64,000 nt of DNA, from the NCBI GenBank assembly GCA_030141585.1, contig JAQIFP010000005.1, positions 1 to 64,000 of the forward strand, read 5' to 3'. Origin of the DNA: Ophryocystis elektroscirrha. Its lineage: Eukaryota > Apicomplexa > Conoidasida > Neogregarinorida > Ophryocystidae. The notes under the pieces were generated by a model that did no database searches, had not been told where the DNA came from, and was given only the letters and a program-made list of their open reading frames with translations. The position numbers were made by a program, and so were the translations under genes. Positions 9,624-19,100 of the stretch are shown here, piece by piece. Each line of letters begins with the position of its first letter. Positions within the stretch are counted from its first letter, which is position 1.

Positions 9624-10218
9624 TTACAAGTTCATAAACTGCTCTTTGTTAATAGATAAATTATCATTGGATATATCATATCCATGCAATAAGCATAATT
9701 CATCAAACTCTTTTGGCTGTAGATTATTTATATCAAAGAATTGTACAGTACCGTCATTTTTTCCCCAACAGATGTGACTATATGTTTTAGTTCGCTCAGT
9801 AATATCATTCCGGTCTCATATCGATCGAAAACCTATATAATAGTTCTAATTCTAATATAATATTTTATTTTTTATATTCAATGACAATTAATGTATATAA
9901 TTACATCAAATGCAGCTTCAACTTCTGCGTAATGAGGTGTAACTTTATAGTTTCGCGAACAGATTGTCAAAAATTCATTAAATGACACAGGCTTATCTGA
10001 TGGATATTCTTGAGCTAATTGCTCAAGTTCCGAAAAAGTCCAATATTGCCCGGCTGCACGAACCGCACATGACAATTCCATGCCATCAATGTAGCCGTCT
10101 CCATCTTTATCAAACCAATCAAAACATTCTTTATACTTAATTATCTGAATATCAGCATATTTTGTATTTCTTTTAATACTTCATCTTCTTCAATACATAT
10201 ACTGTCATTTTCGTGCAT
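9624..10218 (-). CDS. calmodulin-like EF-hand protein
   Basis: Four exons rejoin into about 149 residues; two of the introns are exactly 35 nt. The start is ATG 10218 (MHENDSICIEEDE). The first EF-hand loop is canonical (DKDGDGYIDGME, near residues 25-36). The other three positions keep the EF-hand helical pattern (FDRYETGMILLSELKHI, GYDISNDNLSINKEQF) but lack full calcium ligands. This one-competent-loop pattern is common in apicomplexan myosin light chains and other calmodulin-like subunits. A structural light-chain role is my inference; the partner is unknown. Confidence 0.75.
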
Positions 10219-12399: not shown

Positions 12400-12417
12400 T
12401 GACTGTGACTGAATTAT
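12400..12417. promoter_or_regulatory. 18-bp divergent intergenic between two start codons
   Basis: Only 18 bp separate the DHFR-TS ATG (minus) from the ATG of the DIX-like gene (plus). Any promoter must lie inside the opposing coding region or be shared. No motif can be assigned in such a short stretch. Confidence 0.6.
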
Positions 12418-13574
12418 ATGGCTTTAAGCGCTTTTTTTCAAAACATATCTAATTTAGACGAAAAAATAAAAAAACAATATTACAAATACACCAGAATACT
12501 TATTATCTATACTACAGTAAAAATACCATGCATTTCTCATAAGAACCCAGAGCACAAATCTGATGAGTCACTAAATCTTTTTTATATACCTTATTTGAAT
12601 AATGTAACACTGGGGTACATAAAACGCCATATTCCTCTACAGTTATTAGACTCAATTAATGCTAGTATACCAAAATACCGATTCAAAGCTTATAATCCTC
12701 AATATGAGTATGTTTGGAGGGATTTAATAAATGATAATGATTTGATTCATCAGTTTAATAATAAAATAGAGCTCAAAATTATATTATTTCCTAAGATCCT
12801 CAATACTCAACCGAAAATCTCTCTAAAAATAAATAGCCAACCTGAGACCTTTCAAAAAAATCTAGGTATAAAAATATATTTTGATTACCTACAGTAATAA
12901 AATGTTCATCATATGACTTATACGTCTCTATTTATATATATATACATATAGATAAATTGTTTTGTAAAATTATAAAAAAATTGAATAATTATGTAGATTT
13001 AAATGGAAATCAGTTTCAATCTAAATCAACTTCAACTGATTCAAAAAGCTCTTCAAGAACTCAAGGTATGAATATCTGATATCTTTCAATAATCAAAGAA
13101 GCGAAAGCAAAAGATCAAAGTTCTTTGCATAATAAAGGAGGTATTAACGGTTACATTAAATTACAGAATCAGAAATTTTAACAAAAACTTTGGAACGATG
13201 GGCATTTAATTCAGATGAAACACTTAAAGACATAAAAACTTTGCTCTGTTCACTACATGAAGTTAGAAACTTTTAAGATTTGCATTATAATTCAAGGTTC
13301 TATGGGAGAATTGCAACTGGAAACCTTTGTCATTGTCTTCAATTGTCAATTTAAATGAGAATGAGCTTAAAAAGTTATACCGGTACTTGTATAAAAAAAA
13401 AATGCTTCTTTTAGAACAGCAGTACTTATATGCCATCCAGACAAACATACAAAGTCTCCAAATGATACTCAGGTATATACTCAACATAAGTTATATTTAA
13501 TATAGTATCGTGCCCAACACATATTTTCTGCATTAAATCAGTCTTATAAAAATTCTCAAACACATACAATTTGA
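12418..13574 (+). CDS. DIX-like domain plus auxilin-type J-domain protein
   Basis: Exon 1 (12418-12865) encodes a DIX-like domain: VTLGYIKRHIP, KYRFKAYNPQYEYVWRDL, then NDLIHQFNNKIELKI, matching the order ITLG.FK / F....F..V..E / LP.F.G.I of Dishevelled/Axin DIX. Exons 12997-13065, 13099-13140, 13167-13261, 13297-13382, 13415-13472 and 13506-13574 encode an S/T-rich linker and a J domain with HPD (ICHPDKHTKSPN), preceded by TLLCSLHEVLWENCNWKPL and ended by RAQHIFSALNQSYK, as in auxilin/GAK. Downstream introns are 26-35 nt. The DIX part alone would stop at 12897, but the J part has no in-frame ATG, and a GT at 12866 matches phase with three downstream acceptors. The fusion (about 288 residues) is inferred; two genes is the alternative. 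Confidence 0.65.
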
Positions 13575-13681
13575 ACTTAAATAGTTTTCAAGATTTTAGC
13601 AGACTTAAACTATTTGGTTGAAAGCATTTGTCGAAATAATTGAATTTTTACATAATTTTTTTAAAAAAGCATGCATCAAAT

Positions 13682-14031
13682 ATGGTAAACAACGAAGGCG
13701 TTACAGACAACCAGCTTTTAGACAAACTAGAAACCAGAAATTGTCTAGATAACTCAATTAATACATCTAATAAAGAAAAAGAACTCCGAAAGTTTGATTT
13801 TGACATACTATATGGCCCCAGTATCGGTATTTCAAGAGTAAGAAATTATTAATAGTAAAAAAAGAAGAATACATTGTGAATATTATATTAAGTTAGTGAA
13901 AGACTGATAGGTATAAAAGAGCCTTAAAGTTTCATATTGATCCTCCTCCAAAATTTGAATACTTAGTTGATCAAAAAATGATATCCGAAAATGACCAGTA
14001 CTGTTATCATATTCACATAGTATTTATATAG
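13682..14031 (+). CDS. POLD4: DNA polymerase delta small subunit POLD4-like
   Basis: Two exons (13682-13837, 13903-14031) give 94 residues. The C-terminal half carries the POLD4 signature: LRKFDFDILYGPSIGISR, then after the intron TDRYKRALKFHIDPPPKF, corresponding to F(D/E)...YGP..GI.R...RA...GL.PPPEV of the family. The product ends YCYHIHIVFI, like the short hydrophobic tail of the human protein. The acceptor chosen (AAAG at 13902) keeps the RY-KRA block in frame; other acceptors give stops. POLD4 stabilises the polymerase delta holoenzyme. The N-terminus is variable and acidic. Confidence 0.78.
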
Positions 14032-15733: not shown

Positions 15734-16166
15734 TAATTATTAAAGTTATGAATTTGTCTTAGCCCTATAAGCGTACATTAGTTAAATAAAATTTGAACTT
15801 TTCTATTTCAAAAGTGCATTAAATAAAAAAAAAAAAAAATACCAACTTTTGTTAATAAATTGGCGAACCTGATGAGTGTAACATAAATTGATTTAAAGCT
15901 TCTTCTTCAGTTACGTCAAATCGCTCTGTATGTTTTTATTTTGAAATTTTATTATCTGGGTTAACGCTAGTTATAGTTATGAATTTGGAAGTTAGGTCCA
16001 GTTTAGTTTAAATAAAAAAGTTTATGCAACATACAGTTTTCATGGCTTCATGTAGTAATTAACACTCTGAATTTGATTAAGAAAATCATTATGAGATAAA
16101 ACAATCAATTTTTATAAAGTTTTGCTTGTGTAGAAAAATGGAAAATAATTCCAACTATTAGTTGAA
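15734..16166. other. divergent intergenic region
   Basis: 433 bp of AT-rich sequence between two divergent genes. No ORF, RNA gene or repeat beyond short A/T runs is visible. It presumably holds both promoters. Confidence 0.5.
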
Positions 16167-19100
16167 ATGGTTTCTATAAGCTACTTTCACTGCAACAAAT
16201 TATACAGATTATTGTTACTGATATATTTATGTATACTCCGTTTTTGCAGTTGTGATATCAGTCATACAAAATCCACAGAGCTACAAATAAACACGTATTT
16301 AACAAAAGGGGCTGAAGGGGAAAGATTTATTTTACAGTCATACATATTCTTTTTTTTATGCTGTTTCCTAGCCGCTGCAGCCATACAATGGCTAATCAGC
16401 CATGTTACAGTTTACGTTATACCCGTCAGTGTGATTTGGTTTCTGTTTGGCATGTCACTTCACTTTATATGTCAATGGACGATAAATAATTATAATCTTA
16501 TTAAAAATCATGAATCCACCGCAGAAGATTTGTTTAGTTATGGTGTGGAGTCAATTAGTACAGTTAACGCCGAAGTTGTTTATCTACTATTTTTACCTAT
16601 TTTGCTCTATGAAAGTTGCTTGAATATAAATTGGCACAAATTTAAACGCTTTGCTATCAGTGGAATTTGTTTAGCTGTTTTAGGTGTAAGTACTTATATA
16701 GAATTAAATATATTAAATGACTTTGACATATTATTATTATAATTATTATTATTACTTCTATTACTATTATTATTATTATTATTCTTATTATTGTATATCT
16801 GTAATTTGTTATGAGAGTCAAATGACTTGCATTGCAAGTGTGTGGTTTAATATTATTAATAAGCTCTAAAGATACAATATGTGTAAAACAAAATTATTAA
16901 TTATAGTTAACAAACAATAATCATAAAACTTATTTTAGGTGTTTTATCAAACTATAGTTGTTGGCTCTTTAATTCATATGTCACTTGAAAGTTCATCCAG
17001 CGGATCTTGGTCAAATTCTTTTTTATTCGCATCAGCTATGGTGTCAACAGACCCAGTTGCCGTGGTTTCAGTACTCAATGGGATGCAAGCTCCAGACAAA
17101 CTTGCAACTATGTTTGAAGGAGAGGCATTAATCAACGATGGAAGTTCCATGCTTTTTTTCCAATTTTTTCAATCTTTTTCGAAAGGAAATGTTCAATCTT
17201 TTTATGTAGTTTTTCTGAAATTCATGAATCTTTTTGGTTTGGGTCCATTTTGGGGTTTTGGAATAGGGTTTCTAGTTTATATGTGGGTCAAACATTTCCG
17301 AAAATTTCCTGACATGCAAGTAATAAAACATAATATATATATATATATATATATATTAAAACAGTTAAATTTAGATATACTTTGAATTTACAATTAGTGA
17401 GATATTAATAATTAATATTAATAATAATATTAGAGAAAAGTAAAATTAAAAATAGTTAATATTACTTAATAAATATAGTATAAGTGGATTAATGCCAAAA
17501 TCAGTAACTTCACATGTTTTTGCTTAATTAGTCTTAAGTTAATTTTCGTTCAATTATTATATACTTGTTACTATGTATAGGTTATGATTTGGATCTCTGG
17601 AAGTTATTTTGTGTATTTTATTGGAGAGAGATTTTTGCACACAAGTGGCCCGATTGCAATTGTATGTTACGGTCTATTTTATGTTGCATTTGGCCATATT
17701 GGTTTAGATCATTTGACTCATGAAAGGTTACATCACTCTGTTCAAGCTTTGGGATTATTTGCTAATAGTGGTGTATTTGTTATATCAGGTGTAATTGCAG
17801 CGCGAATGATATACGAAGCATTAAATTTGACGTATTCAGGAGTTAATTACAGCGTTATGATGAATGTTGGAATTATTTATCTTTATCTAATGTTTGCCAG
17901 AGCAACAATGGTTATTTTACTACTCCCAGTATTGAAACGTACTGGATATGGGGTAAATTGGAAAGAAACTGTTCTTTTAATATGGGGAGGCTTACGTGGA
18001 GCTATTGTCTTGACAATAGGCCTTATGATAGAACAAGATTATCAATTACTTTCTACAGCAAGATACACCGCTGTATTATATATGGCAGGTAGTACTTTAT
18101 TAATTTTACTCATTAATGGAACAACTTTTGAATTGTTATACAAGATTTTAAATCCTTACCCTCCTAAACCTTTTAGATGTGTATATTTAGAGAGAGTCAT
18201 GAAACTTGTAAGTTATAAATTAGTACTTCTATATTCAACGAATATATTGAAATTATTTTTGTCTAATTTCATATCTTTCAGATTGATTTCCAATATGATA
18301 AAGAAAAAAAAGTATTAGAAAATCATTGGTTATTCAAGAAGACTGGAATTTTAGAATATGCTGATCGTGTTGTACCCATTTTAGGTAATACATGGTTTAT
18401 TTGATTACATAAATCATAAAATTGAATTTAAAATGTCTAATGATGAACAAATTAGGTTGGAGAAGAATGAATAATCACGGAAAAATAAACTTAAAACTAC
18501 CAAGTATACACGCCGCATTTTTTAATATATCTAAAATTGATGACTGGAAACCTCCTTCTCCTAGAGCCTCGTTTGAAACTTCAAACAATATTTCTGATTC
18601 GAATATAAAAGATAACAGTAGATACAGCAACTTTGTTTTGAACCCTTTATTGAATGTTTCCAAGCGGGACTTGTCTTCTAAAAATATTGTAAAAGCCGAA
18701 CAAAGAGCTCATACTGCTACTGCTAATGTTTGCGGTCTTCGAGGTAATTAAAATACCATTAAAATGTGTTTTTCTTTAGTGTTGAACGAAGCGGAAGGTA
18801 CTTTTGACCCGGAATTATATTTGCAGCTGGTCGATAATCCAACAGCTGCGAGTTCATTCAAGTTATATCAATTTGATCCCACAAAAAATAAAACACATAC
18901 GGAACCCACAGCAGCTTTTGAAAAAGATGATAGAAATAATGTAACCCGGATTTGTTTTGATAATGCAGTACAACCAACTTCTTCCAATAATTCACACTTC
19001 CTGAAAATGTTTGACTCCCCTAATAAAATACCTTCAACGGATTCCAATAGTATTCTTGCTAGACAGCACAGTTGTTATTCTAATCAAAATGAAAACTCAA

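Follow-up and report, generated by a model that had tools for sequence, protein, structure and literature searches.

A predicted DARTAGNAN-type gene that joins a DIX domain to an auxilin-type J domain in Ophryocystis elektroscirrha

On one strand of a contig from the apicomplexan Ophryocystis elektroscirrha, a DIX-like block is followed by an HPD-containing J domain. This raises the question of whether the two domains belong to one protein and, if so, what such a protein would do. The window analyzed here is a stretch of 64,000 nucleotides (JAQIFP010000005.1, positions 1 to 64,000). A reading made from the letters of the window alone (the sequence-only reading) had proposed a fused, self-assembling Hsc70 recruiter. 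The proposal was followed up with profile, structure and genome searches and with an enumeration of splice paths.

Gene model

The DIX-J gene was read from the sequence as seven exons and six GT..AG introns at 12418-13574 on the + strand, with a predicted product of 322 residues. The order of domains in this protein is DIX, linker and auxilin-type J domain with HPD. The features are as follows.

12418..12865, + strand: exon 1, ATG and DIX domain; 149 full codons, with Pfam DIX aligned to residues 55-121
From about residue 25 of exon 1, + strand: first DIX strand, read by eye
12866..12894, + strand: intron 1, 29 nt, GT..AG; in-phase alternative ends at 12951 or 12996
12895..13065, + strand: exon 2, linker, open frame; shortened by use of an alternative acceptor
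13099..13140, + strand: exon 3, linker
13167..13261, + strand: exon 4, auxilin-type lead-in with LLCSLHE; PDB match
13297..13382, + strand: exon 5, VLWENCNWKP lead-in and start of the J domain; PDB match
13415..13472, + strand: exon 6, core of the J domain with HPD; PDB match
13506..13574, + strand: exon 7, end of the J domain and TGA stop; PDB match

The introns measure 29, 33, 26, 35, 32 and 33 nt from 5' to 3'. The 29-nt form of intron 1 was preferred because its size agrees with that of the other five introns. Longer forms of intron 1 may also occur, since an intron of around 100 nt seems, by eye, to be present in the adjoining DHFR-TS gene. Three alternative acceptors in phase with the donor at 12866 had been proposed; exon starts at 12895 and 12952 are in frame, whereas an exon start at 12996 breaks the frame and is one base off, the intron that preserves the frame being 12866-12996. 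A stretch of 97 residues C-terminal to the DIX domain contains 15 S and 14 K; in the DARTAGNAN proteins described below, the linker between the two domains is disordered. DIX and DnaJ were the only Pfam domains found in the 322-residue model up to an E value of 1.

J domain

The auxilin-type lead-in, LLCSLHEVLWENCNWKP, is spread over the exons at 13167-13261 and 13297-13382, with a 35-nt intron between them, and the HPD motif is at residue 288 of the 322-residue model. In a phmmer search against the PDB, residues 221-297 of a 303-residue version of the protein matched 1nz6, 1xi5, 1n4c, 2qwn and 2qwo with E values from 2.1e-11 to 3.4e-10, the best match being 1nz6 (2.1e-11). Residues 210-297 of the same version matched 3ag7, which we take to be a plant auxilin-like protein, at 1.6e-9. 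The six best distinct PDB sequences were thus five auxilin J domains, according to their record names, and 3ag7. The best J domain of another kind in the PDB had an E value of 0.021, around nine orders of magnitude worse than auxilin. These results bear out the earlier call of an HPD-containing J domain with an auxilin lead-in on the same strand as the DIX block.

The general Pfam DnaJ profile responded less clearly, with an E value of 7e-6 and 26.5 bits in the 322-residue model, below its cut-off of 27.8. A search of the genome with the J part gave three matches at an E value of 1, all of which were the DIX-J gene itself. The genome search with Pfam DnaJ gave 19 matches elsewhere and missed the J domain of the DIX-J gene, probably because introns split it; other split auxilin-type J domains may therefore escape in the same way. 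Among 1166 candidate homologues of the whole spliced protein and 15 of the J part, none scored at an E value of 0.01 or better.

DIX domain

The open frame of the DIX exon to 12894 matched Pfam DIX over its cut-off (23.2 bits against 22.2; E value 6.2e-5), and the match spans profile positions 17-77. The score was slightly below the cut-off in the full 322-residue model (20.5 bits). The 303-residue version scored 20.6 bits for DIX and 26.8 bits for DnaJ. None of nine shuffles of the exon 1 residues matched DIX up to an E value of 10, which disfavors a chance match. The DIX-like block that had been noted by eye in exon 1 was thus recovered by profile search.

Other comparisons of the DIX exon were less informative. 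The phmmer search against the PDB gave weak matches to Dixin only (E values of 1.4 and 1.8), ranked under an unrelated match (E value of 1). Structure prediction, which had been suggested as a check, did not serve as one: the single-sequence AlphaFold model of the exon was poor, with a mean pLDDT of 44. A fold search of the PDB with this model gave no match at an E value of 0.001 or better, and no DIX chain was among the best 50 of 126 fold matches. Neither the model nor the fold search was taken as evidence in favor of the DIX domain.

Residues W100, D102 and K120 are spaced like W83, D85 and K103 of Arabidopsis SOK4. According to van Dop et al. 2020, D33 on the head of SOK4 is bonded by W83 and K103 of the tail, and polymerization is severely attenuated by the D85A change (PMC7042713). 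In the chain of 6rsn (VW-Y-A...VLK), the K is 20 positions from the W and an A is found two positions past the W, as D85A predicts. Polymerization, with SEC-MALS, has also been reported for DIX domains of the SAR supergroup, including those of Cryptosporidium parvum and Plasmodium falciparum (PMC7042713). By analogy with these domains, the DIX domain of the predicted protein would polymerize head to tail.

The DIX-J gene was the sole Pfam DIX match found in the assembly of 8,008,172 bases, even at an E value of 10. A genome search with the DIX exon itself gave no paralogue, and neither query gave a second DIX gene as a possible partner in the whole assembly. These searches matched exon by exon and scored the best candidates, so that an intron-split gene could escape them. 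An ELMO-domain gene on C2 was considered as a candidate for another DIX class, ARAMIS (described below), and was rejected, as no obvious DIX was seen by eye in its 4.5-kb neighborhood.

Relation to known DIX and DnaJ proteins

The sequence-only reading had presented the architecture as one unfamiliar to it from other eukaryotes. This did not hold, since DIX with DnaJ was published in 2025 under the name DARTAGNAN (PMC12077222). In a screen of eukaryotic genomes, Kostareli et al. 2025 distinguished four classes of DIX protein in the SAR supergroup, the "Musketeer" proteins: DARTAGNAN, found in stramenopiles and alveolates, combines DIX with DnaJ, PORTHOS combines it with an NAK-type kinase and ARAMIS with ELMO; ATHOS lacks a C-terminal domain (PMC12077222). 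The predicted protein likewise has an N-terminal DIX-like domain, a linker and, in the same predicted protein, a C-terminal DnaJ domain, and the TS/DHFR neighbor points to an apicomplexan and hence SAR organism. The DIX-J gene is therefore best filed as DARTAGNAN-type, a kind already known, with kinship judged by architecture alone. It differs from the published description in that the J domain is not called auxilin-type there; the word "auxilin" is absent from the main text of the paper, although the authors speculated on a GAK-type activity (PMC12077222). In open-licence PubMed Central, no on-topic paper by title was found for the pairing of DIX domain and auxilin. Papers found there for DIX domain, clathrin and DnaJ together were unrelated by title, beyond PMC12077222 and PMC12742282.

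The predicted protein shares with auxilin and GAK (DNAJC6, DNAJC26) a C-terminal J domain with HPD and a helical lead-in that ends in LW..WKP. It differs from them in having an N-terminal DIX domain in place of other parts. Neither a kinase nor a PTEN-like part was found by Pfam up to an E value of 1 in the 322-residue model. The clathrin/AP-binding motifs of auxilin and GAK are the clathrin box, DLL, DPF/DPW and NPF; in a pattern scan of the 322 residues none of these was found, nor was WxxW. The DIX domain is shared with SOSEKI and Dishevelled, and its W, D and K residues follow the SOK4 spacing. DnaJ is the only other Pfam domain of the predicted protein, and none of the other domains of animal and plant DIX proteins was found in it by Pfam.

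A DIX protein and a DnaJ protein also occur together in one clathrin-associated set in P. falciparum (PMC12742282). In the clathrin light chain pull-down, the DnaJ protein PF3D7_1411300 (568 aa) had counts of 62, 68 and 62 and the DIX protein PF3D7_1421000 (177 aa) had counts of 61, 62 and 56, with controls at 0 for both. The counts in the clathrin heavy chain pull-down were 9 and 10 for DnaJ and 3 and 9 for DIX. In the AP-1 gamma pull-down, DnaJ had counts of 3, 5 and 4 and DIX had counts of 2, 0 and 0, the latter not significant (PMC12742282). PF3D7_1411300 is counted among the type III J proteins (PMC11594657). In contrast to the single protein predicted here, there are apparently two proteins in P. 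falciparum; they were compared by description, and PF3D7_1411300 could be auxilin-type or of another type and could have its own DIX or lack one.

Alternative readings

The J-frame exons from 12895 on contain no Met in 174 codons, stop included, in agreement with the earlier remark that the J part has no in-frame ATG. Because the J exons lack a Met codon, fusion with the DIX exon is the simplest reading, by which both domains would be joined in one spliced gene. It is unlikely that the locus instead holds two genes, namely a short ATHOS-like DIX-only protein that ends at the stop at 12895-12897 and a separate downstream J-domain gene, possibly with both forms arising through retention of intron 1. 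A DIX-only form is conceivable because the frame of exon 1, when intron 1 is left unspliced, continues to the TAA at 12895-12897 and gives a DIX protein of 159 residues, and the two domains do seem to be on separate proteins in the P. falciparum clathrin pull-downs. Against this, all three in-phase acceptors for the donor at 12866 connect DIX to J. In a search for a separate J start, GT-AG paths into the lead-in exons were enumerated from the eight ATGs between 12866 and 13296, and a path had to keep its ATG intact and contain no exon of zero length. None of the eight reached a lead-in exon with introns of 20-60 nt; one did so with introns of up to 110 nt (13003) and two with introns of up to 150 nt (12913 and 13003). 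The ATG at 13003 would give a first coding exon of 10 nt followed by an intron of 86 nt, and that at 12913 an exon of 11 nt followed by an intron of 125 nt, so that a separate J gene would begin with a first coding exon of 10-11 nt.

Under a single spliced gene, the DIX domain could still be a non-polymerizing, ubiquitin-like binding module, which would make the protein an ordinary member of the class III J proteins, one end of which binds clients. This is consistent with a profile match that is barely over the cut-off and begins at position 17, and with head-surface residues that were not identified. The SOK4-like spacing of W100, D102 and K120 argues for a polymerizing domain, as does the behavior of those SAR DIX domains that others have tested (PMC7042713), and the binding-module reading is quite improbable. 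The reading preferred here is that of one gene whose product carries a DIX domain predicted to polymerize.

Possible role at clathrin coats

In the preferred reading, one gene encodes a DARTAGNAN-type protein of 322 residues, DIX-linker-auxilin-J, in which the DIX domain would place the J domain on clathrin coats for uncoating by Hsp70. We give this reading a probability of roughly two in three. Within it, the two domains and the in-frame intron-exon reading are demonstrated at the level of the sequence. The DIX domain, by itself or with a DIX partner, would polymerize head to tail, and the polymer would concentrate and position the protein on clathrin coats at a high local density of J domains. 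The J domain would then deliver Hsp70 to clathrin and drive uncoating, and the DIX domain would thus take over the targeting job that is done by the clathrin-binding region in animal auxilin.

The J domain is auxilin-type, none of the scanned motifs is present, and a DIX and a DnaJ protein come down with clathrin in P. falciparum; together these observations suggest a role for DIX in gathering the recruitment of Hsp70 at clathrin coats. Since the scanned clathrin-binding motifs are absent, the DIX domain is the best candidate for targeting, although a divergent motif is possible and, for the same reason, targeting to the coat is unproven. DIX polymerization and the clathrin association of DIX and DnaJ proteins are supported in relatives by the work of others and would apply to the DIX-J protein by analogy; stimulation of Hsp70 and uncoating of clathrin are predicted from the type of its J domain. 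Of the self-assembling Hsc70 recruiter originally proposed, the evidence agrees with the calls of both domains, with their fusion and with the general idea, whereas self-assembly and recruitment are parts that we infer. It is possible, with the odds clearly against it, that in this compact genome the single DIX protein detected is also the single auxilin-type J protein detected, that DIX homopolymerization has replaced the clathrin-binding region of auxilin and that the co-chaperone, by assembling with itself locally, acts as the switch for clathrin uncoating.

Because the J domain is auxilin-type, the predicted protein may be a factor that uncoats clathrin and is targeted to the coat by its DIX domain. 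The auxilin identity would give a SAR-type DIX-DnaJ protein a definite job, and the GAK-type activity on which Kostareli et al. speculated would become directly testable. Together with the pull-downs, it also gives a gene-fusion hint that the DIX and DnaJ proteins of Plasmodium may cooperate.

The genome contains a gene for the clathrin heavy chain, with seven repeat matches on C36. Adaptin-like genes gave 15 matching pieces; one archaeal control genome was also over the cut-off, so that single adaptin pieces prove little. Searches with the clathrin light chain and propeller families gave no match anywhere and were uninformative, as the controls were also silent. The Hsc70 site on the clathrin heavy chain is QLMLT (PMC4436892). 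No QLMLT-like site was found by pattern in the predicted tail of the heavy chain (C36, L004 about 2547-2850, delimited by eye), and if the tail truly has no such site, Hsp70 may load elsewhere. The pattern had three matches in the + frames of L004, all of them before the tail.

Neighboring genes

The DIX-J and DHFR-TS genes are arranged head to head, with start codons at 12418 (+) and 12399-12397 (-) and 18 bases (12400-12417) between them. This gap leaves hardly any room for two separate 5' leaders. The best matches of the TS/DHFR exon were structures presumably from Plasmodium and Babesia. The next frame downstream of the DIX-J gene (13640-13849, +) resembles DNA polymerase delta subunit 4, with an E value of 1.4e-4 and 22.7 bits, below the cut-off of 25. 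Further along the + strand, at 16149-17385, two adjoining frames matched the sodium/hydrogen exchanger, with E values of 2.9e-4 (below the cut-off) and 5.2e-17. On the - strand, an exon of an EF-hand protein was found at 9881-10180 (E value 2.7e-8).
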